This document shows, one piece after another, positions 1-13,425 of a stretch of 15,423 bases of DNA. Source of the stretch: Candidatus Latescibacterota bacterium (GTDB lineage Bacteria > JAAXHH01 > JACQVL01); the NCBI GenBank assembly GCA_016209865.1, contig JACQVL010000007.1, forward strand, positions 1 through 15,423. Direction: 5' to 3'. The position numbers and the translations under genes were made by a program. The notes under the pieces are model-generated. The model was not told the DNA's origin. It saw only the letters and a program-made list of their open reading frames with translations, and did no database searches. Within the stretch, counting starts at the first letter, position 1. The number at the start of each line of letters is the position of its first letter.

Positions 1-516
1 GAGTTAATGCGGCTGGACCTGCAGCTCGTCATCTTGGGCACCGGGATGAAGGAGTACCACGACCTGCTCGCCCAGGCTGCCGCGAAGCACCCGGAGAAGG
101 TTGGGGTGAAGCTCGCGTTCGATAACCGCATCGCCCATCTGATCGAGGCCGGAGCGGACATGTTCCTGATGCCGTCCCGGTACGAGCCGTGCGGCCTCAA
201 CCAGCTCTACAGCCTCCGGTACGGGACGCTCCCGGTCGTCCGCGAGACGGGCGGGCTGGCGGACACGATCCAGGATGACGACCCGGCCACGCATCAGGGG
301 ACCGGGTTCAGGTTCAAAGAGTATACCCCCGAAGCCCTGCTCGGTGCCGTCCGGCGCGCGCTGGACGCCTACCACAACCCGCCTGTCTGGCAGGCGATGA
401 TGCGGCGGGCGATGACGGCCGACTTTTCGTGGGGGTCATCCGCGAAGAAGTACGCGGCCCTGTACGAGAAGGCGGTGGAGAAGAGACGGGGTTCGGGGTT
501 CGGGATTCGGGGTTAG
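1..516 (+). CDS. glgA: Glycogen synthase, C-terminal part (5' end outside window)
   Basis: This is the C-terminal GT-B half of an ADP-glucose-dependent bacterial glycogen (starch) synthase, a cytoplasmic enzyme that extends alpha-1,4-glucan chains. The frame is open from the first base, so the gene starts upstream and about 171 codons are seen. Diagnostic stretches are VILGTG near the start, then DMFLMPSRYEPCGLNQLY and YGTLPVVRETGGLADT, which match the GlgA nucleotide-sugar site, including the catalytic Glu of the EPCG motif. The C-terminal helix (MTADFSWGSSAKKYAALYEKA) is also typical. The last residues (GSGFGIRG) are encoded by a period-7 DNA repeat and are unlike the family's usual C-terminus, so they look like a repeat-derived tail. 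The family call is certain; the physiological link to the downstream efflux genes is not. Confidence 0.95.
   Translation, partial: ELMRLDLQLVILGTGMKEYHDLLAQAAAKHPEKVGVKLAFDNRIAHLIEAGADMFLMPSRYEPCGLNQLYSLRYGTLPVVRETGGLADTIQDDDPATHQGTGFRFKEYTPEALLGAVRRALDAYHNPPVWQAMMRRAMTADFSWGSSAKKYAALYEKAVEKRRGSGFGIRG
488..515 (+). repeat. Heptamer tandem repeat (GGGGTTC-type) at the glgA stop
   Basis: Four units of seven bases are visible: ggggttc, ggggttc, gggattc, ggggtta. The TAG stop of glgA (514-516) lies in the last unit and the following base. The repeat therefore encodes the final residues of the protein. It is read directly from the sequence; no function is known to me. Confidence 0.85.
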
Positions 517-596
517 GGAAGGACTTTCAAGAGCGGGAACTTCAAAGGCACATTCATCGTTGTTGCCAGTACAGAGCGGTCAGCATTGCACTGGAC

Positions 597-733
597 GCCC
601 GCTCCTGAAGGAGCGGGTTGCCCAGACAAAGCCCGCTGAAGCGGGCTCACAGACCGCTTCGAAAGCATTGACTCGCCCGTGGAGCCCCGTTCACGGGGCT
701 TCGTCCGATCAGCCCGCCCATTCATGGGCGGGC
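597..733. repeat. Symmetric array of four short hairpins (REP/BIME-like)
   Basis: The glgA-751 gap (517-750) has no convincing gene but holds four perfect hairpins with tetraloops. They are 598-617 (stem 8, loop TGAA), 630-647 (stem 7, loop TGAA), 683-700 (stem 7, loop TTCA) and 712-733 (stem 9, loop TTCA). Their centres are exactly symmetric about position 665. Bases 597-652 align without gaps to the reverse complement of 733-678, with 40 of 56 identical by my hand count. The eight stem differences form four compensated base pairs (603/612, 605/610, 635/642, 636/641). This looks like a REP- or BIME-type mobile palindrome pair, or a structured 3' UTR. It might also act as a bidirectional terminator or mRNA-stability element, although no U-tract follows. 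Confidence 0.85.
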
Positions 734-750
734 GGAGTTGAGCAATTCCC

Positions 751-1170
751 ATGATCTCCCGTCTCCTCGCCGGATTCCTGATCGTCGCCCTGCTCGTTCC
801 CCCGCTCGCGGCGGAAGAAGTCGCCCTCGTCTGCCGGGACTCGGACGCGGGCATGATGCCGATGGATCGGTGCTGCTGCGCCGCCGCTGAACAGACCTCA
901 TCGTGCGATCCGATTCACATGATCCGGTCGTGCTGCTGCGACGTGCGGATCACGTACCGCCTCGATCAGCACAACCGGGAAGGGATGCTGACGGGGCAAC
1001 CCGTCTCCGGACGGCAGCACGGTTCTTCTGAGGATGGCTCTCTGGTTGTCCCATCGGGTCTCTCTCCAGAAGCTATTCTCTCTTCTCCTCCTCTCCTCGT
1101 CTCGTTCATTCCATCGAGTCGATCTTCCCCATCGCCCCAGCTTTCTCTCCTCTGCATCTACCGCATTTAA
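751..1170 (+). CDS. Small secreted Cys-rich protein beside copper efflux genes
   Basis: This is a 139-residue protein of no family I can name with certainty. Residues 1-21 form a clear Sec signal peptide (MISRLLAGFLIVALLVPPLAA, cleavage likely before EE), so the mature part should be periplasmic. The mature N-terminal half has eight Cys: C28, C41-C43, C52 and C61-C63, in two CCC clusters, plus Met residues (MMPM at 35-38). The C-terminal half is Ser/Pro-rich and ends in a hydrophobic LSLLCIYRI, recalling the tails of small proteins often found next to CusBA-type pumps. The gene precedes cusB by 114 bases on the same strand, so a role in Cu/Ag binding or sensing is inferred. No strong Shine-Dalgarno is seen at the correct spacing; GGAG at 734-737 is 13 bases away. 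The pyrimidine-rich 3' half makes the exact extent less sure. Confidence 0.65.
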   Translation: MISRLLAGFLIVALLVPPLAAEEVALVCRDSDAGMMPMDRCCCAAAEQTSSCDPIHMIRSCCCDVRITYRLDQHNREGMLTGQPVSGRQHGSSEDGSLVVPSGLSPEAILSSPPLLVSFIPSSRSSPSPQLSLLCIYRI

Positions 1171-1182
1171 GCGATCAGCTTT

Positions 1183-1274
1183 GGGATCATAGGATTTGGG
1201 ATTGAGGGATTGCCGAAGCAGGATTCTCACTCCCTCTCCAATCCAAAATCCAAAATCTAAAACCCAAAATCCCA
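1183..1274. repeat. Inverted heptamer repeat (ATCCAAA-type) before cusB
   Basis: Positions 1241-1274 carry about five period-7 units (atccaaa, atccaaa, atctaaa, acccaaa, atccca). The left part, with tttgggat at 1180-1187 and gatttgggattgaggga at 1193-1209, is close to the reverse complement of tccctctccaatccaaaatc at 1231-1250. The element can therefore fold on itself around a loop near 1211-1230. Its right end abuts the cusB ribosome site AAGGAG (1274-1279). The gap 1171-1284 holds nothing else that I can see. Confidence 0.8.
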
Positions 1275-1284
1275 AGGAGCCTCT

Positions 1285-2664
1285 ATGCACCCGCGTACCC
1301 GCGTCAGGGTGGCGCTGGCGTTGTGTACGGTCGTCGTGATCGCCGGCGTGTCCCTGATCGTCACTCAGTATGGAGATCGGATTCCGGGCCTCAAGTCGCT
1401 TCCCATGTTCCGGCCGGCAGCGGGCGTTGTCACGGCCCGGCCGGACGAGGCCGACTACTGGACGTGCACGATGCACCCGTCAGTCCGCATGAAAGAGCCG
1501 GGGAAATGCCCGATCTGTGGGATGGACCTGGTGCCCGTCCGGGCGCAGGGCATGCCGGACATGCCGGGGATGAAAGGCATGACACCGGCAACGACACAAC
1601 CCGCACAGGTGGGCAACGCCCCGGATCGCTCGGTCTTCACCGTCGATCCTGCTAGACAACAACTCATCGGCGTCCAGATTGATACAGTGCAGATCCGTAC
1701 GCTGGAGAAGACCATCCGCACCGTGGGGCTCGTCGAGCCGGACGAGCGCCGGACAGCCCAGATTTATACCAAGGTTGACGGGTGGATCGACAAGGTGTTT
1801 GTGAATTACACCTGGCAGCATGTGATGAAGGGTGCCCCGCTCTTCTCGCTCTACAGCCCGGACCTCGTTTCCACCCAGGAGGAATACTTGACCGCCCTGA
1901 AGTCGATGGAACGGCTGGGCGAGAGTCCGTTTCCTGATGTCGCGGCACGGGCGCGCTCGCTACTCGACGCCACCCGGAAACGGCTGCTCTTCTTCGATAT
2001 TACCCCGCAACAGATCGATGAACTGGAGCGGACCAAACAGATGAAGAAAGAGCTGATCATCTATTCCCCGATCACCGGCCATGTGACCGAGCGGAATGCC
2101 TTTCCCGGGATGCGTGTGGAGCCGAACACACGGCTGTATACGGTGATTGATCATTCGTATATATGGGTGAAGGTGGACATCTACGAGCAGGACATCCCCT
2201 TCGTCCATGTCGGCCAACGCGCGAGGATGACGGTAGACGCCTATCCGGGCCGGACGTTTGCCGGGACGCTGACGTTCATCGAACCGCACATGATGAGCGA
2301 GACCCGCACCCTCAAAGTCCGTCTGGAATTCCCCAACCCTGATCTCGTCCTCAAGCCGGAGATGTACGCCAACATCGACCTCACGGTGTCCGTCGGCCCG
2401 CGTCTGGCCGTCCCGACGAGCGCCGTCCTGCGCACCGGCCAGCGCGATTTGGTGTTCGTCAATCGCGGCGAAGGGCGGATGGAGATGCGGAAGGTAGAGG
2501 TCGGGACCAGGACAGGGGATTACTACGAAGTCCTCGGCGGGCTCCGGGCGGGGGAGCGGATCGTGACGGCGGCGAATTTCCTGATCGACGCGGAGAGCAA
2601 GGTGCAGGGCGCGCAGGCGACGTGGGAGACCCCGAACGTCCAGCACAAGGAGCACGTGCCATGA
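1285..2664 (+). CDS. cusB: CusB-like RND periplasmic adaptor with heavy-metal-binding domain
   Basis: This is the membrane-fusion (adaptor) subunit of a tripartite Cu/Ag efflux pump, linking the inner-membrane pump to the outer-membrane channel. Of 459 residues, 10-27 are a hydrophobic anchor or signal. Residues 58-85 are a heavy-metal-binding domain with C61, MHP at 63-65, C75PIC78 and GMDLVPV. A Met-rich linker follows with M90, M93, M96 and M99 spaced every three residues. The core then shows CusB features: VGLVEPDERR, a lipoyl-like segment (VDGWIDKVFVNYTW), a helical hairpin around YLTALKSMERL, and the closing beta-barrel (VPTSAVLRTGQRDLVFV). The start is fixed by AAGGAG at 1274-1279, five bases before the ATG. 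The stop overlaps cusA (ATGA). The N-terminal metal domain and Met run may replace the separate chaperone CusF, which is absent here. Confidence 0.93.
   Translation: MHPRTRVRVALALCTVVVIAGVSLIVTQYGDRIPGLKSLPMFRPAAGVVTARPDEADYWTCTMHPSVRMKEPGKCPICGMDLVPVRAQGMPDMPGMKGMTPATTQPAQVGNAPDRSVFTVDPARQQLIGVQIDTVQIRTLEKTIRTVGLVEPDERRTAQIYTKVDGWIDKVFVNYTWQHVMKGAPLFSLYSPDLVSTQEEYLTALKSMERLGESPFPDVAARARSLLDATRKRLLFFDITPQQIDELERTKQMKKELIIYSPITGHVTERNAFPGMRVEPNTRLYTVIDHSYIWVKVDIYEQDIPFVHVGQRARMTVDAYPGRTFAGTLTFIEPHMMSETRTLKVRLEFPNPDLVLKPEMYANIDLTVSVGPRLAVPTSAVLRTGQRDLVFVNRGEGRMEMRKVEVGTRTGDYYEVLGGLRAGERIVTAANFLIDAESKVQGAQATWETPNVQHKEHVP
2647..2652 (+). promoter_or_regulatory. Ribosome-binding site that fixes the cusA start
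   Basis: AAGGAG lies eight bases before the ATG at 2661. This favours that start over the in-frame ATG at 2622, which lies inside cusB and has no such site. The protein then begins MINQIIDWCARN, typical of the CusA N-terminus. Confidence 0.8.
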
Positions 2665-5600
2665 TCAACCAGATCATCGACTGGTGCGCGCGGAACAAGT
2701 TCCTCGTCCTGCTGGCGACCGCGTTCCTCGTCGCCTGGGGCGTCTGGGCGATGTTCAATGTTCCATTAGACGCCATCCCCGACCTCTCCGACGTGCAGGT
2801 CATCGTCTTCACCGAATGGCCGGGCCGCAGCCCGGACCTGGTCGAGGATCAGATTACGTACCCGATCGTCACGAAGCTCCTCGCCGCACCGAACGTGCAG
2901 CGCGTCCAGGCGATCTCCGACTTCGGAGTGTCGTACGTCTACGTCATCTTTGAGGACGGAACCGACCTCTACTGGGCGCGGAGCCGGGTGTCGGAGTACA
3001 TGCAAGGGGTGGCCGGCAGACTGCCCGAAGGCGTCACCCCGGTGCTCGGCCCGGATGCGACCGGAGTGGGCTGGGTGTTCGAGTACGCGCTCGTCGATGA
3101 GACGGGCCGACACAACCTGCAAGAATTACGGAGCTTCCAGGACTGGTCCCTGCGCTACTGGCTGCAGGCCGTGCCGGGCGTCGCCGAAGTGGCGAGCGTG
3201 GGCGGGTACGTCAAGTCCTACCAGGTCAATCTCGACCCCAACAAACTCTTCGCGTACCGCATCCCGCTAAGCCGGGTAGTGGACGCCATCCGGCGGAGCA
3301 ACAACGACGTCGGCGGCCGTTCGATCGAGGTGGCGACCGCTGAGTTCATGGTCCGTGGCCGCGGCTACGTGAAGTCCGTGGCCGACCTGGAGCGCGTCCC
3401 GGTCGGGACGGATGAACGAGGCACCCCGATCTACCTCCGGGACCTTGGCGAGGTGCAGCTCGGACCCGACATGCGGCGCGGTTTAGCCGAGCTAAACGGC
3501 CGGGGAGAGACGGTGGGTGGGATTGTCGTCATGCGGTATGGAGAGAACGCGCTCGACGTGATCAACCGGGTGAAACAGCGGCTGGCTGAGGTGAAAGATT
3601 CCTTCCCGCCGGGGGTCAAGCTGGTCATCACGTACGACCGGGCTGAACTGATCGAACGCGCCATCGAGACGCTGAAAGGGACGCTCACGGAAGAACTCCT
3701 CATCGTGAGTCTGGTCATCCTGCTCTTCCTGCTGCATATCCCGAGCGCGATCATTCCGATTCTCACGATTCCGATCGCGGTCGTCATCGCGTTCATCCCG
3801 ATGTCGTACATGGGACTGACGGCCAACATCATGTCGTTGGGCGGGATCGCCATCGCCATCGGCGCGCTCGTCGACGCGGCGATCGTCGTCGTCGAGCAGA
3901 CGCACAAGAAACTGGAACACTGGGACGCGGAGGGCCGGCCGGGCGACTATCAGGACGTCGTCATCCGCGCCGTCAAAGAAGTTGGTGGACCGAGTTTTTT
4001 CTCGTTGCTCGTCATCGCGGTGTCGTTCATGCCCATCTTCACGTTGGTGGCGCAGGAGGGGCGCTTGTTCAAACCCCTGGCATTCACGAAAAACTTCTCG
4101 ATGGCCATCGCCGCGGTGTTAGCCATCACGCTCGACCCGGCCATCCGGCTGCTGTTCACGCACGCGAAGGCGTTCAACTTCTCGCCACGGTGGCTCTGCA
4201 GGATGGCGAACGCCGTCCTGGTCGGCACGATCCACAGCGAAGAGCGGCATCCGATCAGCCGCCCGCTGATGCGTCTCTACCAGCCGGTCGTCGAATTCGT
4301 CCTACGGCACCGGTGGGCGGTGGTCGTCACGGCGGGACTCCTCGTCGCCCTCACCGTTCCGGTCTACTTCCAGCTCGGCTCCGAGTTCATGCCGCCCCTG
4401 AACGAAGGGTCGATCCTGTTCATGCCTACGGCGGTGCCGGGAATGTCCATCACCGAAGGGGCGAAGGTCCTCCAACTGCAGGACAGGGTCCTGGCTCAGT
4501 TCCCCGAAGTGAAGAGCGTCTTCGGCAAGATCGGCCGCTCGACCTCCCCGACCGACCCGGCCCCACTGAGCATGGTGGAGACGACCATCATCCTGAAACC
4601 CCAGAATGAATGGCGCACGGTGCATGAAGACCGCTGGTACTCCGGGTGGGCGGTCTGGCCGCTGAACACACTCTTCGGCCTCGTCTGGCCGGAGGAGCGG
4701 CCGATGACATGGGATGAACTCGTCAGCGAGATCGACCCGAAGGTGAAGGTGCCGGGGATGGCGAACATCTGGTGGATGCCGGTGCAGACCCGGACGGAGA
4801 TGCTGTCGACGGGCATCCGCAGTAATTTGGGGATCAAAGTCTTTGGCCCGGACCTGACGATGATCGACACCGTGGCTGTCCGGGTCGAGCGGGTCCTGAA
4901 AGACCTGCCCGGCACCCGGTCGGTGTTCGCGGAGCGGACGACCGGCGGGTACTATCTGGATTTCAACATCAACCGGGAAGCCGCGGCCCGGTACGGGTTG
5001 ACCGTGGGGGATGTGGAAGACATCATCGAGACGGCGATCGGCGGGATGGACGTCTCCCGGACGGTCGAGGGCCGGGAGCGGTATCCGATCACCGTCCGCT
5101 ATTTGCGCGAGCTGCGCGACGACCCTGACATGCTCAGGCGAGTGCTCGTCCCGACCCCAGCCGGGGCGCAGGTGCCCCTCTCTCTGCTGGCCGACATCCA
5201 GCCCACGACGGGCGCGCCGATGATTCGTGATGAGAACGGCCAGTTGCAGGGGTTCGTGTTCGTCGACGTGACGGAGAAGGATTACGAGGGGTACATCGAG
5301 CGAGCCCAGCAGGTCGTGCAGGAGAAGGTGTCCCTACCGCCGGGCTACCGGATCGAGTGGGCGGGGCAGTACAAATATCTACTCCGGACGCGAGAACGAT
5401 TGAAATATATCCTGCCTTTAACCCTGTTCATCGTGTTTGTCCTGCTCTATCTCAACACGAAATCCGTCGTCAAAACCTGGATCGTCCTGCTCGCCGTGCC
5501 GTTCTCGGCGGTCGGGGCGATCTGGCTGCTGGCTCTTCTCGACTACAACATGAGCATCGGCGTGTGGGTCGGCCTGATCGCGTTGATGGGGGTGGATGCG

Positions 5601-5939
5601 GAGACGGGCGTGTTCATGCTGTTGTACCTCGACCTCGCCTACGAGGAGCGTCGTGCGAAAGGACGGATGAACACGTTGGAAGACCTCAAAGAAGCCATCA
5701 TCTACGGGGCGGTGAAGCGCGTGCGTCCAAAGGTCATGACGGTCGGCGTCATGTTCATGGGGCTGCTGCCCATCATGTGGTCGGCGGGAACGGGAGCGGA
5801 CCTGATGAAGAGGATCGCCGCCCCGATGATCGGGGGGATCTTCACCTCATTCATCATGGAGCTTATGGTCTACCCGGTGATTTATGAGATCTGGCGCGGC
5901 CGCGGGATGCACAAAGCCGCAGACAGGGAGGGAATATGA
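2661..5939 (+). CDS. cusA: CusA-like heavy-metal RND efflux pump (Cu/Ag type)
   Basis: This is an inner-membrane proton/metal antiporter of the HME-RND family, 1092 residues from the ATG at 2661. It has the duplicated RND plan: TM1 near residues 12-30, the first porter domain, TM2-6 around 345-520, TM7 near 555, the second porter domain, and TM8-12 to the end. The proton relay of E. coli CusA is kept: D405 in ALVDAAIVVVEQ, E981 in VDAETG and K1024 in RVRPKVMT. The three-Met metal site is also kept: M588 in ILFMPT, M638 in PLSMVE and M714 in RTEMLSTG, aligned by me to E. coli M573, M623 and M672. A Trp-rich insertion of about 27 residues lies between M638 and M714 relative to E. coli; I recall similar segments in other CusA relatives. 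The gene overlaps cusB and cusC by ATGA, implying coupled translation. Confidence 0.95.
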   Translation: MINQIIDWCARNKFLVLLATAFLVAWGVWAMFNVPLDAIPDLSDVQVIVFTEWPGRSPDLVEDQITYPIVTKLLAAPNVQRVQAISDFGVSYVYVIFEDGTDLYWARSRVSEYMQGVAGRLPEGVTPVLGPDATGVGWVFEYALVDETGRHNLQELRSFQDWSLRYWLQAVPGVAEVASVGGYVKSYQVNLDPNKLFAYRIPLSRVVDAIRRSNNDVGGRSIEVATAEFMVRGRGYVKSVADLERVPVGTDERGTPIYLRDLGEVQLGPDMRRGLAELNGRGETVGGIVVMRYGENALDVINRVKQRLAEVKDSFPPGVKLVITYDRAELIERAIETLKGTLTEELLIVSLVILLFLLHIPSAIIPILTIPIAVVIAFIPMSYMGLTANIMSLGGIAIAIGALVDAAIVVVEQTHKKLEHWDAEGRPGDYQDVVIRAVKEVGGPSFFSLLVIAVSFMPIFTLVAQEGRLFKPLAFTKNFSMAIAAVLAITLDPAIRLLFTHAKAFNFSPRWLCRMANAVLVGTIHSEERHPISRPLMRLYQPVVEFVLRHRWAVVVTAGLLVALTVPVYFQLGSEFMPPLNEGSILFMPTAVPGMSITEGAKVLQLQDRVLAQFPEVKSVFGKIGRSTSPTDPAPLSMVETTIILKPQNEWRTVHEDRWYSGWAVWPLNTLFGLVWPEERPMTWDELVSEIDPKVKVPGMANIWWMPVQTRTEMLSTGIRSNLGIKVFGPDLTMIDTVAVRVERVLKDLPGTRSVFAERTTGGYYLDFNINREAAARYGLTVGDVEDIIETAIGGMDVSRTVEGRERYPITVRYLRELRDDPDMLRRVLVPTPAGAQVPLSLLADIQPTTGAPMIRDENGQLQGFVFVDVTEKDYEGYIERAQQVVQEKVSLPPGYRIEWAGQYKYLLRTRERLKYILPLTLFIVFVLLYLNTKSVVKTWIVLLAVPFSAVGAIWLLALLDYNMSIGVWVGLIALMGVDAETGVFMLLYLDLAYEERRAKGRMNTLEDLKEAIIYGAVKRVRPKVMTVGVMFMGLLPIMWSAGTGADLMKRIAAPMIGGIFTSFIMELMVYPVIYEIWRGRGMHKAADREGI

Positions 5940-7225
5940 CACCCATACATCGCCAGACGATAGTATTCCTCCTCGCGTTGATTTGTTCAATCAGCCCGGC
6001 CCGGGGACAGTCCTCATCGCCGGCCGCCGTACCGCCTGTTATTCAGCTCGATGACCTCGTCCAGGAAGCGCTGAAGAAGAACCCCTCCATCCGGGCATCA
6101 CGCGCTCGGTGGACAGCTGCGACCAAGCGGCCGTCCCAGGTGAGCACCTTGCCCGACCCGATAGTCACCTTCGTCGAGATGAGCGATGGGACACCGAGGC
6201 CGTTCGGGAACCTCGGTAAGGAGAGCTTTAGCTGGTACGGAATCTCCGCCGCTCAACCGATCCCGTTCTCCGGTAAGCTCTCGCTGCAGGGGCAATACGC
6301 GTCCCAGGACGCCGCGGCGCTCGAACAAGAGGCCGAGACAACCGCCTTGCAGATCGTCGCTCAGGTGAAACAGGCCTACTACGATCTCTATCTGATCGAT
6401 CGTTCCCTCGACATCATCGCAAAGGACAAGGACCTCCTGGAACGGTTCGAGCAGATCGCAGAGACGAAATACGCGGTCGGACAAGGTCACCAAGAGCCCG
6501 TCTTGCGAGCACAGCTTGAACTGTCACTGCTCACGGAACGGCTCACCGTGTTGGAACAACAGCGCGGCAGTGCGATGGCCCAGCTCAATCGTTTGCTCAA
6601 TCGTCCCCCGGACACGTCACTGGCGGGCAAGACCGCTCCAGTTTCACCCGCTGGCTTTCAGTACACCCTGGAAGACTTGCTTCGCGAAGCGAAAGCACGG
6701 TCGCCGCAACTCCGGGCGCGGCAGTTCATGGTGGACCGAGAGAACGTCGGGCTCAACCTGGCCCGGCGGGCCTACTACCCGGACTTCACCGCGATGTACA
6801 CCTATTTGCATCGTCCCACGTTCACCGATATGTGGGAGATCAAAGTGGATGTGCAGTTCCCGCTCTATTTCTGGAGGAAACAACGACTCGGTGTGAACGA
6901 AGCGGCGGCCACGCTGGAAGCGGCTCGGCAGGAGTATCAGACCGCCGCGCAGGAACTCTTCTTCAACATCAAGGCTGAGTACCTCATGGTGAACGCGACG
7001 AAGCGACTGATCGACCTGTCTGGCACCGTAGTCGTGCCGCAGGCCACGTTAGCCACCGAGTCCGCGCTGGCGGGTTACCAGGTCGGGAATGTCGATTTCC
7101 TGACGCTCCTGAACGATTTCACCGTGCTTCTCAACTACGAGTTGCGCTACCACGAGCAAGTCGTCGCCTACCACAAAGCCCTGGCCCGTCTGGAAGAGCT
7201 GACGGCGTTGCCGCTCTTGCGGTGA
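5936..7225 (+). CDS. cusC: TolC-family outer-membrane efflux protein (CusC-like)
   Basis: This is the outer-membrane channel of the tripartite metal pump, 429 residues. Residues 1-25 are a Sec signal peptide (hydrophobic FLLALICSI, likely cut after PARG). It is not a convincing lipoprotein, unlike E. coli CusC, because Ile sits just before the only N-terminal Cys. The body shows the internal duplication of TolC-type proteins: two helical arms, each opening with an ALKKNPSIRASRA- or AKARSPQLRARQF-like repeat, plus beta segments around PQ/FPLYFW. The start overlaps the cusA stop (ATGA) and is preceded by AGGGAGG at 5926-5932. The gene order is B-A-C rather than the C-F-B-A of E. coli. The gene ends 15 bases from the convergent carbonic anhydrase gene, with no evident terminator between them. 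Confidence 0.9.
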   Translation: MTPIHRQTIVFLLALICSISPARGQSSSPAAVPPVIQLDDLVQEALKKNPSIRASRARWTAATKRPSQVSTLPDPIVTFVEMSDGTPRPFGNLGKESFSWYGISAAQPIPFSGKLSLQGQYASQDAAALEQEAETTALQIVAQVKQAYYDLYLIDRSLDIIAKDKDLLERFEQIAETKYAVGQGHQEPVLRAQLELSLLTERLTVLEQQRGSAMAQLNRLLNRPPDTSLAGKTAPVSPAGFQYTLEDLLREAKARSPQLRARQFMVDRENVGLNLARRAYYPDFTAMYTYLHRPTFTDMWEIKVDVQFPLYFWRKQRLGVNEAAATLEAARQEYQTAAQELFFNIKAEYLMVNATKRLIDLSGTVVVPQATLATESALAGYQVGNVDFLTLLNDFTVLLNYELRYHEQVVAYHKALARLEELTALPLLR

Positions 7226-7240
7226 CGGGGAGCATCCGGC

Positions 7241-7900
7241 TTACTGCACGATCTCGACCGCCCCGGTATCCAGGTCGTACCGCGCCCCGACGATCGTGAG
7301 CTTGTGCTCGTCGAGGTGCTTGCCTAAAATCTCCCGCGACGTGCCCAGTTGCTTGACGCCCAGGCGGACGTTCGCCGCGATGGCGTTGTCGACAAGGTCG
7401 CCCGGTTGCCCTTTGACCGCATCCACCGCCGGTTTAATCGCCTGGACGAGGCTCTTGATGTGGGCTTCCGGCTCGCCCGGCTGCGTGGCGGCGGTGACCG
7501 CTCCGCAGCGTTCGTGCCCCAACACCATGACGAGCGGCGCGCCTAAGTGCTCGACCGCGTACTCGATACTCCCCAGCGCGACGTCATCGACGACATTCCC
7601 GGCGACCCGGACGACGAACAGATTCCCCAGTCCGGCATCGAACACGATCTCAGGCGGGACGCGCGAATCCGAGCAACTCAAGATGACGGCGAACGGCGTC
7701 TGGGATTTTGCGAGACTCTCCCGGCGTTGGCGGGTCTGGTCGGGGTGGGTGAGCTGTCCGGCGACGAACCTCTTGTTCCCGTCCATCAACCGGGCCAGCG
7801 CGGCGTCGGCGGTCATCTTCGCGCCGGGCTGGTCTGCTGCCCGCACGACGGGTGAGGCTACGAGAAGGGACACGAGCATCAATCTAACGGAGAGGCGCAT
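7241..7900 (-). CDS. Secreted beta-class carbonic anhydrase
   Basis: The enzyme interconverts CO2 and bicarbonate using a Zn site. The 219-residue protein begins with a signal peptide (MRLSVRLMLVSLLVASPVVRA), so it should act in the periplasm. Active-site residues are all visible: C76-S-D78-S-R80 and H129-x-x-C132 (GHERCGAV), giving the Cys/His/Cys ligands and the Asp/Arg dyad. The downstream GNVVDDVALGSIEYAV stretch is also typical. The start is supported by AAGGAG (complement of 7909-7914), eight bases upstream. The gene is last of four on the minus strand, 78 bases after the NUDIX gene, and converges on cusC. Many beta carbonic anhydrases are cytoplasmic; secreted forms are less usual but known. 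Confidence 0.93.
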   Translation of the reverse strand: MRLSVRLMLVSLLVASPVVRAADQPGAKMTADAALARLMDGNKRFVAGQLTHPDQTRQRRESLAKSQTPFAVILSCSDSRVPPEIVFDAGLGNLFVVRVAGNVVDDVALGSIEYAVEHLGAPLVMVLGHERCGAVTAATQPGEPEAHIKSLVQAIKPAVDAVKGQPGDLVDNAIAANVRLGVKQLGTSREILGKHLDEHKLTIVGARYDLDTGAVEIVQ

Positions 7901-7918
7901 GGGAACGGCTCCTTCAGG

Positions 7919-7939
7919 CAGTGACGAGTGACGAGTGAC
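7919..7939. repeat. Heptamer tandem repeat (GAGTGAC), three units
   Basis: The units are cagtgac, gagtgac and gagtgac. They lie directly upstream of the carbonic anhydrase ribosome site. The same unit recurs at 13368-13395 and, inverted, at 8457-8484. Confidence 0.85.
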
Positions 7940-7962
7940 TGCTGAACGAAAGGCATGTTCTC

Positions 7963-7997
7963 ATTCATCATTCTGCATTCATCGTTCATCGTTCGCA
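7963..7997. repeat. Heptamer tandem repeat (ATTCATC-type) over the NUDIX stop
   Basis: The units are attcatc, attctgc, attcatc, gttcatc and gttcgca. On the minus strand they read GATGAAC/GATGAAT and encode the last residues (ANDER) and the TGA stop (7979-7981) of the NUDIX gene. Other TGA copies on the minus strand begin at 7988 and 7967, so all three frames are closed. Confidence 0.85.
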
Positions 7998-8410
7998 CGA
8001 TGCTTCAGGTACTCCAGATAAGCCAGGTGACACAGGTACGCCTCGATGTACCGGCGTCCGGTGAGGCAGACGTCGAGTTCATCCAGCGCACGGCGCGGGT
8101 CGATGAACCGCAGCCCCTGCCCCTCCCCCAGGACGAGCGCGGAGACGGGCTTGTCGAGAGGAGCGACGTAGAAATGACGGGTATGATCCGCGTCGTAGAA
8201 CGTGGCCAGGTGCTCGAACTGCGTCAGGTCGTGGCCGATCTCTTCCCGGACCTCGCGGATGAGCGCCTGCTCGGGCGTCTCGCCGTCCTCGACGTGCCCG
8301 CCGATGATGCTCCATTGATCGGGGAAGAGAATACGCGGGTCGTTGTCCCGATGATGGACGAGAATCTCTCCGTCAGGGTTGACGAAGAGAATGGAGACGA
8401 TAGTCGGCAT
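7979..8410 (-). CDS. NUDIX hydrolase
   Basis: This is a cytoplasmic NUDIX-family pyrophosphohydrolase that cleaves a nucleoside diphosphate linked to some group X; the substrate cannot be read from the sequence. The 143-residue protein has a full Nudix box at residues 38-60: G38-x5-E44-x7-R52-E53-V-x-E56-E57-x-G59, ending in His where a hydrophobic residue is usual. The N-terminal strand IVSILFVNPDGEILVHHRD and the DQWSIIGGHVE lead-in fit the fold. Upstream GAAGAG is only a weak ribosome site. The C-terminal end (ANDER) is encoded by a heptamer repeat and may be a non-conserved extension. Its neighbours are the zinc-ribbon gene (79 bases upstream) and carbonic anhydrase (78 bases downstream), so it may be co-transcribed with them. 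Confidence 0.92.
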   Translation of the reverse strand: MPTIVSILFVNPDGEILVHHRDNDPRILFPDQWSIIGGHVEDGETPEQALIREVREEIGHDLTQFEHLATFYDADHTRHFYVAPLDKPVSALVLGEGQGLRFIDPRRALDELDVCLTGRRYIEAYLCHLAYLEYLKHRANDER

Positions 8411-8434
8411 GAGCGCACTCTTCCGAATGAGAAC

Positions 8435-8484
8435 GTGACCAGTTAGTCATGTTTTCTCGTCACTTGTCACTGGTCACTCGTCAC
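8435..8484. repeat. GTGAC-type heptamer array with inverted partner
   Basis: On the minus strand 8457-8484 is four period-7 units, each ending or starting in GTGAC (plus-strand tcgtcac, ttgtcac, tggtcac, tcgtcac). A perfect nine-base inverted copy (gtgaccagt 8435-8443 with actggtcac 8469-8477) allows a stem-loop. The array begins five bases after the zinc-ribbon gene's stop. It places TGA codons in all three minus-strand frames. Confidence 0.8.
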
Positions 8485-8489
8485 TGTTT

Positions 8490-8888
8490 CTACTTCTGAT
8501 TCTGCTTCATGAATTCTTCCGCCGCCTTCTTCTGTTCAGGGGTTAAGTCTGTTTCATCGAGTTTTTTCGCGATGCCCTGCTTCATGGCTGCGTCATAGAT
8601 CGGATTACTCTCCTGCGATTTCTGGTGAAGAAGATTCATCACCCAGGCCACCACCACGGCCAGCAGGAGGGCACCGCCGTACCAGCCCCACGTCAGCACC
8701 ACCCGGCGAAACCGGGTCTTGAGGGTATGCCGCCAGACACGCGGCTCCAGGCGGAGCCAGAACCGGGACATACATGTCGCGCACCGGTAAGGCCGTTGAT
8801 GGAACCAGAGCAGCCAGTTGAATAACCGTTCATACCAGCGCCGCCGTGACCGGTACACGTCGGTACTGCCACACGTCGGGCATTGCAT
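8490..8888 (-). CDS. Zinc-ribbon, single-pass membrane protein of unknown function
   Basis: The 132-residue protein begins MQCPTCGSTD. It carries two CxxC pairs, C3/C6 and C36/C39, forming a likely zinc ribbon, with a basic, aromatic segment between them (RSRRRWYERLFNWLLWF). One transmembrane helix follows around residues 64-87 (WYGGALLLAVVVAWVM). The tail is charged (KLDETDLTPEQKKAAEEFMKQ). The topology is probably ribbon in the cytoplasm with a periplasmic tail, though the reverse is possible. I chose the start at 8888 because GGAGG sits six bases upstream; a longer frame to 8951 would add a repeat-encoded, unconserved-looking N-terminus. It lies 59 bases downstream of mutS. I do not recognise the family. 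Confidence 0.75.
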   Translation of the reverse strand: MQCPTCGSTDVYRSRRRWYERLFNWLLWFHQRPYRCATCMSRFWLRLEPRVWRHTLKTRFRRVVLTWGWYGGALLLAVVVAWVMNLLHQKSQESNPIYDAAMKQGIAKKLDETDLTPEQKKAAEEFMKQNQK

Positions 8889-8894
8889 GAGGAA

Positions 8895-8899
8895 CCTCC
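8895..8899 (-). promoter_or_regulatory. Ribosome-binding site that fixes the zinc-ribbon gene start
   Basis: GGAGG on the minus strand lies six bases before the ATG at 8888-8886. It supports this ATG over the upstream in-frame ATG at 8951. Confidence 0.75.
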
Positions 8900-8905
8900 A
8901 GAGGA

Positions 8906-8948
8906 AGGTTGAGGTTGAGGAAAACAAGTCATTCCTCAATCTTAACCT
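8906..8948. repeat. Inverted repeat at the mutS stop
   Basis: Arms 8906-8922 and 8932-8948 match at 15 of 17 positions around a nine-base loop (aacaagtca). Each arm has a doubled TTGAGG-like core. The mutS TGA (8950-8948) touches the right arm, and the left arm runs to within six bases of the next gene's ribosome site. It may be a weak terminator or mRNA-end hairpin; there is no clean U-tract. Confidence 0.65.
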
Positions 8949-11539
8949 CAATCTGCTCGTTTTTTCAGTTCACTCAATTTGTTTAACGCCTCGAGCGGCG
9001 TCAAGGTATTAATGTCAAGTTGCCGCAGTTCATCGACGATGGGGTGGTCCTGCGGGACGAACAAGCTGAGCTGGTACGCGTTCTGCCTGGGATGATGCCG
9101 GGTCGAGCGCGCCGGCCCGGCGGGGGTTGCCCCTTCGGCTTCCAGGTCGGCCAACACCGCCTTCGCCCGATCGACGACCTCCTGCGGCAGCCCGGCCAAT
9201 CGCGCCACCTGGATGCCGTAACTCCGGTCACAGCCCCCCTCCACGACCTTCCGCAGGAAGACGATCCGGTCCCCCCGCTCGCGGACGGCCACGTTGTAGT
9301 TGCGGAGACGGGGGAGGGCGGATTCCAGGTCGATCAGTTCGTGGTAATGCGTGGCGAAGAGCGTCTTCGCCGCCCGCTTCGGGACGTTGTGGAGGTACTC
9401 GGTCACCGCCCAGGCGATGCTCAGCCCGTCGAACGTGCTCGTCCCCCGCCCGATCTCATCGAGCAGGATGAGACTGCGCGGCGTCGCGTTGTTCAGGATG
9501 TTCGCCGTCTCGTTCATCTCGACGAGGAACGTGCTCTCTCCCCGGGCGAGGTTATCAGACGCCCCGACCCGTGTAAAAATACGGTCGACCGTCCCGATCC
9601 GGGCGGAGCGGGCCGGGACGAACGAGCCGAGCTGCGTCATCAGGACGATCAGCCCGGTCTGGCGGAGGAACGTGCTTTTCCCCGCCATGTTCGGGCCGGT
9701 GATGAGGGCAATCTGCTCCGTCTGCGTGTCCAGATGGACGTCGTTCGGGACGAACGGCTCGCCTTCGAGCAGTTGCTCGACGACCGGATGCCGGCCGTCC
9801 AGGATGTCGATCCGCGTGTCCTCATCGACGGCCGGGGCGACGTAATCGTTCTGCACCGCCACGACGGCCAGGGCGGTCAGGAAGTCGAGTTGGGCGAGGG
9901 CGCGGGCGTTTCCCTGAAGGTGGCCGAGGTGACTGGCCACCTCCGTCCGGAGCTGGAGGAAGAGCTGGTACTCTAATTCCACCATCTTCTCTTCCGCCCC
10001 TAAGATCTTCTCCTCATATTCCTTCAGATCCGGGGTGATGAACCGCTCGGCGTTGACCATCGTCTGCTTCCGGATGTAATCGCCGGGGAGCTTGTGGAGG
10101 TTGGGCTTCGTCACCTCGATGTAGTACCCGAAGACTTTGTTGTACTCGACTTTGAGCGACTGGATGCCCGTGCGCTCGCGTTCGTGCTGCTGGAGGGCGG
10201 CGATCCACCGCTTCCCGCTCGAACTGACCGCCCGCAGGTCGTCCAGCTCCGCATGGTAGCCCGGACGGATGAGGCCGCCCTCGGTCAGCGCTAAGGGCGG
10301 GGCCTCGACCAGAGCGCGGTCGATCCGGTCGGCCAGGCTGCTCAGGTCGTTCAACTGGTCGCGGAGCGACCGGAGCAGGGACGATTCGACGCCGGCCAGG
10401 GCGGCTTTCATCGACGGGATGAGCCGGAGGGCGTCCTTCAGCCCGATCAGGTCGCGGCCGTTCGCCCGCTCCGACCCGACCCGTCCGGCTAACCGTTCGA
10501 TGTCCCCGGTCGATTTCAGCAGTCCGGCCACCTGGTCGCGCAGGTCGTGGCGGTCGACGAGTTCCCGGACCGCCTCCTGGCGGAGCATGATGGCGGGCAC
10601 CGAGACGAGCGGCTTCGTGATCGCGCTCCGCATGAACCGCGCCCCCATCGGGGTATACGTCCGGTCGAGCACCGACAGCAGCGTCCCTTCGCGTCCGCCG
10701 TCCCGGAGGGAGTTGATGAGCTCTAAATTCCGCTGGGTGGCGGCGTCCATCAACATCGACTCGGAGACGGTGTAGTGGGACAGGCTCCGGAGATGGGCCA
10801 GCCGGTTTTTCTGCGTGTCTTTCAAATAGATGAGCACCCCACCCGCCGCGGCGATGGCCGGGACGAGACCGTCGCAGCCGAACCCTTTCAACGAGGCGGT
10901 CTGGAAGTGCTCGATCAGCGTCCGGTGGGCAGAGTCATAGGCGAACGCCCAGCCGTCGAGCAGGCTGATGACGATGTCCGGGAAGCGCGGACTGAGCAGG
11001 GTGCTCGCGCCCTCCGCCCATTCGCGGGGGACGACCGCCTCCGCCGGGTTCAGGCGGGCCAGCTCGTCGAGAAGGTCGGCTTCCGTCAATTCGGTGACCG
11101 CAAACTCGCCCGTCGAGAGGTCGACGAGCGCCAGTCCGTACCGGTCCTGACCGGGAGCCAGGCCGATGATGTAGTTGTTCTGGCGGGCATCAAGCGTCTG
11201 GGAGAGCAGCGACGTGCCCGGTGTGACGACCTCTACCACGTCCCGCTTGACGATGCCCTTCGCCTTCTTAGGGTCCTCGACCTGTTCGCAGACGGCCACC
11301 TTGTACCCGGCCCGGATGAGTTCCGCGATGTACTTCTCGACCGCGTGATAGGGCACACCGGCCAGGGGCGTCCTCTCCGGGCCGCCGTGATTCCGGGCGG
11401 TCAGGGTCAGGCCGAGTACCTTCGAGGCGACCCGGGCATCCTCGTTGAACGTCTCGTAGAAATCCCCCATCCGAAAGAAGAGGATGGCATCCGGATGTTG
11501 TGCCTTCATCTTCGCGTATTGCGCCATCGCGGGGGTCAT
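8948..11539 (-). CDS. mutS: DNA mismatch repair ATPase MutS
   Basis: MutS recognises mispaired bases and, with MutL, starts methyl- or nick-directed repair in the cytoplasm. At 863 residues it is of normal MutS1 length. Domain I has the mismatch-reading F27-Y-E29 in MGDFYETF. The clamp region includes YNKVFGYYIEVTKPN. The ATPase domain has Walker A GPNMAGKST (615-623), Walker B ILLDEIGRG (D694, E695), then TLFATHYHEL and the GCDRSYGIQVARLAGLP helix-turn-helix region. The C-terminus is DINTLTPLEALNKLSELKK. The start MTPAMAQYAKMKAQHPDA matches the family, but no Shine-Dalgarno is seen. A minimal ATG-TGA start-stop lies ten bases upstream on the minus strand, within the leader. It is first in the minus-strand block and diverges from the marR-like gene. 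Confidence 0.98.
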   Translation of the reverse strand: MTPAMAQYAKMKAQHPDAILFFRMGDFYETFNEDARVASKVLGLTLTARNHGGPERTPLAGVPYHAVEKYIAELIRAGYKVAVCEQVEDPKKAKGIVKRDVVEVVTPGTSLLSQTLDARQNNYIIGLAPGQDRYGLALVDLSTGEFAVTELTEADLLDELARLNPAEAVVPREWAEGASTLLSPRFPDIVISLLDGWAFAYDSAHRTLIEHFQTASLKGFGCDGLVPAIAAAGGVLIYLKDTQKNRLAHLRSLSHYTVSESMLMDAATQRNLELINSLRDGGREGTLLSVLDRTYTPMGARFMRSAITKPLVSVPAIMLRQEAVRELVDRHDLRDQVAGLLKSTGDIERLAGRVGSERANGRDLIGLKDALRLIPSMKAALAGVESSLLRSLRDQLNDLSSLADRIDRALVEAPPLALTEGGLIRPGYHAELDDLRAVSSSGKRWIAALQQHERERTGIQSLKVEYNKVFGYYIEVTKPNLHKLPGDYIRKQTMVNAERFITPDLKEYEEKILGAEEKMVELEYQLFLQLRTEVASHLGHLQGNARALAQLDFLTALAVVAVQNDYVAPAVDEDTRIDILDGRHPVVEQLLEGEPFVPNDVHLDTQTEQIALITGPNMAGKSTFLRQTGLIVLMTQLGSFVPARSARIGTVDRIFTRVGASDNLARGESTFLVEMNETANILNNATPRSLILLDEIGRGTSTFDGLSIAWAVTEYLHNVPKRAAKTLFATHYHELIDLESALPRLRNYNVAVRERGDRIVFLRKVVEGGCDRSYGIQVARLAGLPQEVVDRAKAVLADLEAEGATPAGPARSTRHHPRQNAYQLSLFVPQDHPIVDELRQLDINTLTPLEALNKLSELKKRAD

Positions 11540-11587
11540 AGCGTATCACATGATGAAAAAAGCGGATAAGCCTAAGACAGAATGGAA

Positions 11588-11613
11588 TAGGGGCGCAGAA
11601 TTCTGCGCCTCTA
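11588..11613. repeat. Long palindrome at the predicted mutS transcription start
   Basis: An 18-base perfect palindrome (ggcgcagaattctgcgcc, 11592-11609) extends through one G-T wobble and three more pairs to 11588-11613. There is no loop, so as duplex DNA it could bind a dimeric protein; as RNA it would form a hairpin only if fully transcribed. Its right end touches the -10 box of the minus-strand promoter. Similar loop-less GGGGCG palindromes occur as dispersed repeats in other environmental genomes, as far as I recall. Confidence 0.8.
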
Positions 11614-11641
11614 CTATAGGGAAACGACGCAACAGAGTCAA
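11613..11641 (-). promoter_or_regulatory. Sigma70-type promoter for mutS
   Basis: On the minus strand TTGACT (complement of 11636-11641) and TATAGT (complement of 11613-11618) are separated by 17 bases, each matching consensus at five of six positions. The predicted start near 11606 gives a leader of about 66 bases before the mutS ATG. Confidence 0.65.
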
Positions 11642-11682
11642 GGGCTTTCTTCCTCTCCCGGTCATCCTTGATGAAAAACCGC

Positions 11683-11711
11683 TTGACAATTTCGCCAGAT
11701 AGTTTTATTTT
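11683..11711 (+). promoter_or_regulatory. Sigma70-type promoter for the marR-like gene
   Basis: A perfect -35 TTGACA (11683-11688), 17-base spacer and TATTTT -10 (11706-11711) lie in a strongly AT-rich stretch unlike the rest of the window. The predicted start is near 11718, giving a leader of about 45 bases. It diverges from the mutS promoter. Confidence 0.65.
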
Positions 11712-11712
11712 T

Positions 11713-11738
11713 GAAATATTCTTTTTTCGAATAATTTG
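11713..11738 (+). promoter_or_regulatory. Candidate MarR-type operator
   Basis: An AT-rich imperfect inverted repeat, gaaatattc (11713-11721) and gaataattt (11729-11737), lies just after the -10 box, over the predicted start site. MarR-family proteins typically bind such dyads near their own promoter, so autorepression is inferred. The repeat is imperfect and could be chance in an AT-rich tract. Confidence 0.4.
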
Positions 11739-11762
11739 AAACAATAAAAAAGGGGAATCCTC

Positions 11763-12227
11763 ATGGAAACGGTAGAAGTCAAAGCGAAGGAGTTGGTCGG
11801 GTATATCGACCTGCTCATCCATCGCGTCATGCTGATCCAGCACACGGGCAACGACGTGTGCGGGCACCTGACCCGGCAGGAGCTGAACGTCATCACGACG
11901 CTCGGCAAGCACGGGTCGTGTATGATGAGCGAGATCGCCGACCACGTCATGCTCGCCGTCAGCAGCGTGACCGGCATCGTCGATCGGCTCGTCGAGAAGA
12001 AGCTCGTCCGCCGGGAACGGTCCGACGATGACCGCCGCATCGTGCGTGTGGAGTTGACCCCTGAAGGACAGGAGATGTCCCAGGCCGCGAGCGAGCTGCG
12101 GATGAAGCTGGGGCGTGCGATGCTGAACGCGCTGGATGAACACGAGCAAGACGTGCTCTTAGCGTTATTCCGGAAGATCACGCACAACATAACGGAGAGT
12201 GAAAAGCACGCCTCCGTGGGAACCTAA
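11763..12227 (+). CDS. MarR-family transcriptional regulator
   Basis: This 154-residue protein is a winged helix-turn-helix dimer, likely a ligand-responsive repressor of the efflux genes that follow. The recognition region is clear: LTRQELNVITTLGKHGSCMMSEIADHVMLAVSS-type helices at about 36-70, then GIVDRLVEKKLVRRERSDDDRR and the wing IVRVELTPEG. Flanking N- and C-terminal helices form the usual dimer domain. AAGGGG lies seven bases before the ATG, downstream of a strong promoter. The RND adaptor begins 81 bases after its stop on the same strand, the typical regulator-pump layout. The inducer cannot be read from sequence. C33 (NDVCGH) and C53 (GSCMM) could make it thiol-sensitive, but this is speculation. 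Confidence 0.93.
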   Translation: METVEVKAKELVGYIDLLIHRVMLIQHTGNDVCGHLTRQELNVITTLGKHGSCMMSEIADHVMLAVSSVTGIVDRLVEKKLVRRERSDDDRRIVRVELTPEGQEMSQAASELRMKLGRAMLNALDEHEQDVLLALFRKITHNITESEKHASVGT

Positions 12228-12296
12228 CCGTTGGCTCTCTTGTCTTATGGTCGTATACATCCAGCGGCGTTGACCCGCGTGCTGACTCGCCCCTCC

Positions 12297-12302
12297 AGGA
12301 GG
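12297..12302 (+). promoter_or_regulatory. Ribosome-binding site that fixes the RND adaptor start
   Basis: AGGAGG lies six bases before the ATG at 12309. It supports this start over the in-frame ATG at 12231, which would put 26 non-signal-like residues ahead of the lipoprotein-type signal. Confidence 0.8.
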
Positions 12303-12308
12303 AATGAC

Positions 12309-13373
12309 ATGCGTCGGTTGTTTCCTCTTCTGCTCCTCATCACCGCCGCCTCATGCGGCCGCTCGACCAGCGCGGAGAAAGCCGCCAGCCCGGTGATCGC
12401 CCGCGTCGAAGCGGTGCCGGTCGCCCGCCACGATATCGAGCGACAGCTCGCCGTCACCGGCTCCCTCCTCCCGTACGCCGAGGCGACGGTGAGCGCGGAG
12501 GTGTCCGGACGGGTGACGGACCTCCACTTCGATGTGCAGCAATCCGTGCGGCAGGGGGATGAGCTGACACATTTCGATGATACCGAGTACAAGCTCCAGC
12601 TCGCCCAGGCGAAGGCCTCTCTCGCCCAGGCCCGTCTGGCGGCCGAACGGGCGGAGCAGGACCGGCTCCGCAACCAGGAACTCCTGACCGCCGGGAGCAT
12701 CTCGCAATGGGCGTATGACGTGTCGAAAGCGGCCAGTGACGCGGCACACGCCCAGCAGGACGCGGCAGAAGCGGCGGTGAACCTGGCCGAAAAACGGCTC
12801 ACGGATACCCAGGTCCGCGCCCCCATCTCCGGGTTGGTCACGGATCGGTACATCAACATCGGCGACTACGTCCGCTCTCCTTCCCCGGTGGCCCGGATCG
12901 TGAACGTCAACCCGCTGAAAGTCAAGGCCGCCGTCCCAGAACGATTTGCCGCTGTCGTGAAACCGGGACAGCCGCTTGCAGTGAGCGTCGACGCCTACTC
13001 CACCCAGACATTCCCCGGCCGCATCACGATCGTCAACCCGGCCACCGACCCATCGACCCGGACGTTCACCGTCGAGGGGGTCGTGCCCAACCCGGATGGG
13101 CGGCTGAAGCCCGGGTTCTTCGCTAAGGTGTCGATCACGACCGGGGCCGCGGAACAGGTGCTGGTCGTCCCGGCCGAGGCGCTGGTCACATCAGCCGGAA
13201 AACCGGCGGTGTACGTCGCCCGGGCCGGGATCGCCACACTCATCCCGGTTGAAGTCGGTGAACGCCTCGACCGCACCGTCGAGATCATGACCGGCGTGAC
13301 CGCCGGGGATACGGTGCTGGTACGCGGGCACACCACCTTAGCTGATGGCGCGGCAGTCAGTGTGATGAAGTGA
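12309..13373 (+). CDS. RND efflux periplasmic adaptor (HlyD/AcrA type)
   Basis: This is the adaptor of a second tripartite efflux pump, 354 residues from the chosen start. The N-terminus MRRLFPLLLLITAASC16 is lipoprotein-like, though Ala at -3 makes the lipobox weak. Domains in order are beta-barrel and lipoyl start (VSGRVTDLHFDVQQSVRQGD), an Ala/Gln-rich alpha-hairpin (about residues 90-150), the second lipoyl half (TQVRAPISGLVTDRYINIGDYV), the barrel (PDGRLKPGFFAKVSI) and a membrane-proximal domain (VPAEALVTSAGKPAVYVA). It lacks the heavy-metal-binding domain of the other adaptor, so its pump probably handles organic compounds. It lies between the marR-like gene and the RND pump. Its stop codon lies inside a GTGAC heptamer array. 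Confidence 0.9.
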   Translation: MRRLFPLLLLITAASCGRSTSAEKAASPVIARVEAVPVARHDIERQLAVTGSLLPYAEATVSAEVSGRVTDLHFDVQQSVRQGDELTHFDDTEYKLQLAQAKASLAQARLAAERAEQDRLRNQELLTAGSISQWAYDVSKAASDAAHAQQDAAEAAVNLAEKRLTDTQVRAPISGLVTDRYINIGDYVRSPSPVARIVNVNPLKVKAAVPERFAAVVKPGQPLAVSVDAYSTQTFPGRITIVNPATDPSTRTFTVEGVVPNPDGRLKPGFFAKVSITTGAAEQVLVVPAEALVTSAGKPAVYVARAGIATLIPVEVGERLDRTVEIMTGVTAGDTVLVRGHTTLADGAAVSVMK

Positions 13374-13412
13374 CGAGTGACAAGTGACGAGTAAAAACAT
13401 CACTCTTCACTA
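13368..13412. repeat. GAGTGAC heptamer array over the adaptor stop, with inverted partner
   Basis: Four period-7 units (aagtgac, gagtgac, aagtgac, gagtaaa; 13368-13395) contain the adaptor's TGA stop (13371-13373). Two further TGA codons at 13378 and 13385 close the other frames. The segment 13398-13412 (catcact, cttcact) is an imperfect inverted copy, so a short hairpin is possible. It ends just before the GGAGG (13417-13421) of the next gene. Confidence 0.8.
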
Positions 13413-13425
13413 AACCGGAGGTTCT

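Follow-up and report, generated by a model that had tools for sequence, protein, structure and literature searches.

The window analysed here, a stretch of 15,423 nucleotides from a draft genome of a Candidatus Latescibacterota bacterium (assembly GCA_016209865.1, contig JACQVL010000007.1, positions 1–15,423), carries four short hairpins in mirror-image order at positions 597–733, which raises the question of what kind of element this is, what in it is conserved and how it came to be there. The left half unit, on the plus strand, consists of hairpin A (597–618, stem 598–617, loop TGAA, with an outer G597-T618 wobble pair), a linker (619–629) that in the alignment has diverged from the consensus TGATCGTACGA, and hairpin B (630–647), in which a 7-bp stem, compensated relative to the rest of the family, closes a second TGAA loop. 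The right half unit, on the minus strand, consists of hairpin B' (683–700, AGCCCCG/TTCA/CGGGGCT), a linker placed by the alignment (701–711) and hairpin A' (712–733), which has a 9-bp stem and the loop TTCA as read on the plus strand. The spacer separating the two B hairpins (648–682) is 35 bases long, against a usual 7–8 among the seven inverted pairs aligned. A preliminary description had reported the loops TGAA, TGAA, TTCA and TTCA, exact symmetry around position 665, and a gap-free alignment of 597–652 with the reverse complement of 678–733 in which 16 of 56 positions differ, eight of them lying in stems as four compensatory pairs; all of this was reproduced, down to the identity of the pairs listed. 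The further statement that no stem pair is broken is borne out in that all 32 local pairs are intact, and requires one amendment, since the right half closes hairpin A with an outermost G-C pair that in the left half is weakened to G-T (G597/T618). Folding of 580–750 as single-stranded DNA gave z = −5.7, with none of 200 shuffles folding as well, and no hairpins in the window other than these four combine a perfect stem of at least 7 bp with a TGAA or TTCA tetraloop.

Together the four hairpins make up a single copy of a short DNA repeat, scattered between genes in this uncultured bacterium, that resembles the REP and BIME repeats of other bacteria. The host draft genome comprises 3.75 Mb in 356 contigs and is 83% complete; a BLAST-type search of it returned 20 matches. 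Seventeen half units were then aligned and used to build a covariance model of the half unit, comprising a 9-bp hairpin A, a linker of about 11–13 bases and a 7-bp hairpin B, with a consensus of approximately CCGCCCGCCCATGAATGGGCGGGC TGATCGTACGA AGCCCCGTGAACGGGGCT (hairpin A, linker, hairpin B). A covariance-model search had been proposed in the preliminary description, which allowed that no other copies might exist; in the host draft genome it gave 28 matches at E ≤ 0.01, corresponding to about 20 distinct loci, with the identical copy carried by contig ends C43 and C290 counted once. Over the genomic stretches examined the model gave 34 matches, weak single hairpins included. Because many copies lie near contig ends, the actual copy number may be higher than about 20 loci. 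Both halves of the window copy match the model, the left at 594–649 on the plus strand with 66.6 bits and the right at 681–736 on the minus strand with 82.6 bits, the best score in the genome.

At seven aligned loci the units form A-B..B'-A' inverted pairs of about 110–140 bp, each made of two tail-to-tail units whose B hairpins face inward; single units or single hairpins account for the remaining loci. Five of the seven pairs have a triloop in one B hairpin and a tetraloop in the other. The window copy is among the seven, with a tetraloop in both B hairpins and the longer spacer, while at C291 one B hairpin is common to two A hairpins.

Conservation across copies was assessed with two alignments, one produced by plain MAFFT and one fitted to the covariance model. 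Pairing holds in 90% of the stem cells of the plain alignment, where seven pairs have changed on both sides; with 33 distinct rows the corresponding figures are 92% and nine. The covariation score for the 33 rows lay above 500 of 500 shuffles and all slid controls; any observed covariation measure was reached by at most one of 500 shuffles, with slid versions far below. The proposal that folding is maintained by compensation is thereby upheld, and copies with stems differing without compensation, which could have spoken against it, are not the pattern seen. A diverged copy at C3 (L068:3166–3216) illustrates the pattern, with five compensated stem pairs and TGAA in both loops as read from the sequence. 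The idea of a family with fixed loop and variable stem is partly upheld: it fits diverged copies of the C3 type, and TGAA is the usual loop, but TCGA(A), TCAA, TAAA, TGCA, GCGC and triloops occur in other copies, and most stems are still recognisable in sequence.

An inverted pair could also function as one long cruciform or palindrome, its halves pairing with each other as in the REPIN model, and such long-range pairing is preferred when the window copy is folded as minus-strand RNA, and in both folds of C113. Within inverted pairs, however, the halves differ at 41 of 201 stem positions (20%) while 191 of 209 local pairs (91%) are intact, and in the window copy nine stem differences between the halves leave 32/32 local pairs intact. 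Because local pairing is kept while the halves diverge, it is the individual hairpins that are conserved and not a long inverted repeat, and the long palindrome is highly improbable as the functional form.

The copies are strongly confined to the spaces between genes. Genes were called with a simple codon-usage gene finder, which gave a coding density of 86%; only 1 of 22 element midpoints fell inside a gene (P about 4e-17). Within 150 bp of copies there are 16 gene 3' ends and seven 5' ends, and at C334, C165 and C119 the predicted gene terminates within the element. The window copy is preceded on the plus strand by a gene at 7–516, incomplete at the contig end, with its stop 80 bases before the element in the open reading frame list; its product is presumably the C-terminal part of a glycogen-synthase-type glycosyltransferase.

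This adjacency to gene 3' ends, together with the compensatory stem changes, the frequent UGAA loop and a very stable RNA fold, is also what would be expected of a structured RNA element in mRNA 3' regions, acting as a stabiliser, attenuator or bidirectional terminator and kept by selection on the RNA fold and not on mobility. Departures from pairing in the modelled strand comprise 15 G-T and 18 A-C. With the two about equal, nothing points to either RNA strand as the selected form, and strand-specific RNA selection was rejected because G-U did not outnumber A-C. The two orientations are found together at one locus, an Rfam search of the window yielded no family at its gathering threshold, the window copy has no T run after it, and the relatives searched hold no copies. 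An RNA element as the primary identity of the family is therefore considered unlikely.

A classical MITE, descended from a DDE insertion sequence and carrying the A hairpins as part of its terminal inverted repeats, is an alternative that draws on the inverted-pair layout with its often shared outer TCCGCCCGCC ends, and on a fragment about 0.8 kb from one copy that we take to be of an ISL3-like transposase. Against it, a permutation test on direct repeats gave no target-site duplication (p = 0.48), half units often occur singly, which argues against a need for paired ends, and the ends are themselves hairpins with covarying stems. A MITE origin is very unlikely on these grounds. Flanking inverted repeats, striking at C291 (GTGTACGAGAAG..CTTCTCGTACAC), C327 and C3, were considered as part of the element and rejected over all loci (permutation p = 0.26). 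At C291 the repeat pair lies within the split palindrome GTGTACGAGAAG...CTTCTCGTACAC (L056, about 2564–2690), as if inserted into a hairpin, and at C327 a single A-type hairpin is nested in GGATAGAGA...TCTCTATCC (L072, 6070–6129).

The reading favoured here, and a likely one, is that the family is an interspersed palindromic repeat of REP/BIME-like kind, specific to its lineage, that has spread as a non-autonomous mobile palindrome. In such a scheme the family probably spread as a palindromic element dependent on others: the hairpins, in single-stranded form, would be recognised by a transposase acting in trans, which by analogy with REPINs could be of the HUH/Y1 type. Copies would be retained immediately downstream of stop codons, positions in which they cause little damage and could in addition serve as 3'-end structures of mRNAs. 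The mobilising enzyme might now be lost, lie in the missing part of the draft or be of another type. The RAYT for which the preliminary description suggested looking was not found: neither PF01797 (Y1_Tnp) nor the RAYT model NF047646 matched the 83%-complete draft even at E ≤ 1, while controls were detected. With about 17% of the genome not covered by the draft, the negative result is weak evidence of true absence. PF01797 is present in two relatives from the same order. Besides the undetected Y1/RAYT gene, the missing GTAG or positionally fixed CGTC tag and the lack of a target-site duplication signal count against the favoured reading.

Terminal tags were sought with a second repeat family of the same genome as internal control. 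This CGTC-type REP, ATTCCCGC-NNNN-GCGGGAAT, has 138 exact copies in the host genome (stem ATTCCCGCNNNNGCGGGAAT, for example at L077:507–526, L090:5308–5327 and C15:8321–8340); of 16 copies examined, 15 are preceded by TGTC or CGTC, and 14 of these 15 are also followed by CCA. It is of the CGTC-1 type (dRS3-like), in a genome with no detected Y1 transposase. None of 23 units of the double-hairpin family has the GTAG that marks a hairpin foot, even when up to 8 bases on either side are included. REPs of the CGTC superfamily bear CGTC or TGTC at one foot and a CCA-type tail at the other; no CGTC motif occurs at a fixed position among the units examined. Movement of the family by an enzyme other than Y1/RAYT, recognising the paired hairpins and TGAA-type loops and neither the stem sequence nor a GTAG/CGTC foot, is conceivable and seems rather improbable.

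The distribution of the family fits a lineage-specific repeat. A DNA search of 38 other genomes gave no match and the covariance model found no copy in 15 genomes of the same order. An exact degenerate pattern run over 84,980 species, a scan from which records of the host genome itself were possibly excluded and which copies with an altered linker would escape, returned one match only, judged to be chance, and no convincing copy. That match, in an Acidobacteria genome (L049), was rejected as a copy, scoring 13 bits with no further copies in that genome. IMG/VR viral contigs had no match. A generic scan for tetraloop hairpins in 400 kb of one order relative counted 26 hairpins against 42 in the shuffled control, with no close hairpin pairs and no analogous family seen.

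The likening to BIMEs and REPs made in the preliminary description holds in that the copies are dispersed, extragenic and mostly 3' of genes, and form inverted pairs with compensated stems. The BIMEs of Escherichia coli are mosaics of palindromic units of different subtypes in alternating orientation, a layout the present family shares; each of their units is a single-hairpin REP of the GTAG type, whereas the unit here is untagged and has two hairpins. REPINs of Pseudomonas fluorescens (Bertels and Rainey 2011, PMC3116915) likewise count inverted doublets among their main forms, show compensatory changes and include singlets that may be remnants, but they possess a conserved end sequence and a RAYT, whereas no RAYT was detected in the present draft and local hairpins are conserved in place of the long one. 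GTAG- and CGTC-tagged REPs (Di Nocera et al. 2013, PMC3733652) are also short extragenic palindromes, many with short loops, that form inverted dimers and heterodimers with different loops, lie 3' of genes and in some cases are inserted inside other palindromes; in several Agrobacterium CGTC-3 dimers two stem-loops stand at the spacer ends (PMC3733652). The present family differs in its two hairpins per unit, its few copies (about 20 loci) and its lack of a tag. It thus belongs with the broad REP-like or BIME-like class, by its dispersed extragenic palindromic copies and inverted pairs, and outside the GTAG- and CGTC-tagged superfamilies, whose foot motifs it lacks. Untagged REP-like families are known from Mycobacterium, Deinococcus, Bordetella, Brucella and cyanobacteria (PMC3733652), and resemble the present one, as far as their description goes, in being palindromic without a terminal tag. 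Because such families are already known, the present one is filed as a newly found untagged double-hairpin family within the REP-like class, with an unusual two-hairpin unit, and not as a new class. An uncultured lineage thus contributes a REP-like family that is untagged and built of double hairpins, and the case shows that such families are detectable from one copy through internal covariation. Should its mobilising enzyme be found, it would test whether Y1 enzymes or something else move untagged palindromic repeats, a question left open in PMC3733652.

The host genome holds other repeats. A third family comprises 22 exact palindromes, GTAGGGGCG...CGCCCCTAC, with a variable but self-complementary inner stem (for example C15:4714–4741 and C13:9280–9307), and a related core, GGCGCAGAATTCTGCGCC, lies in the window at 11592–11609 between mutS and the next gene. 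A CRISPR-like array with a 61-base period and the hairpin repeat TCCCCACGCCTGTGGGGA was seen at L089 (C16) 9594–9977. Elsewhere in the window, 1285–7225 is occupied by an operon which we take to encode a CusB/CusA/CusC heavy-metal RND efflux system, followed after 7225, on the other strand and within 1285–7900, by a presumably carbonic-anhydrase-like gene.
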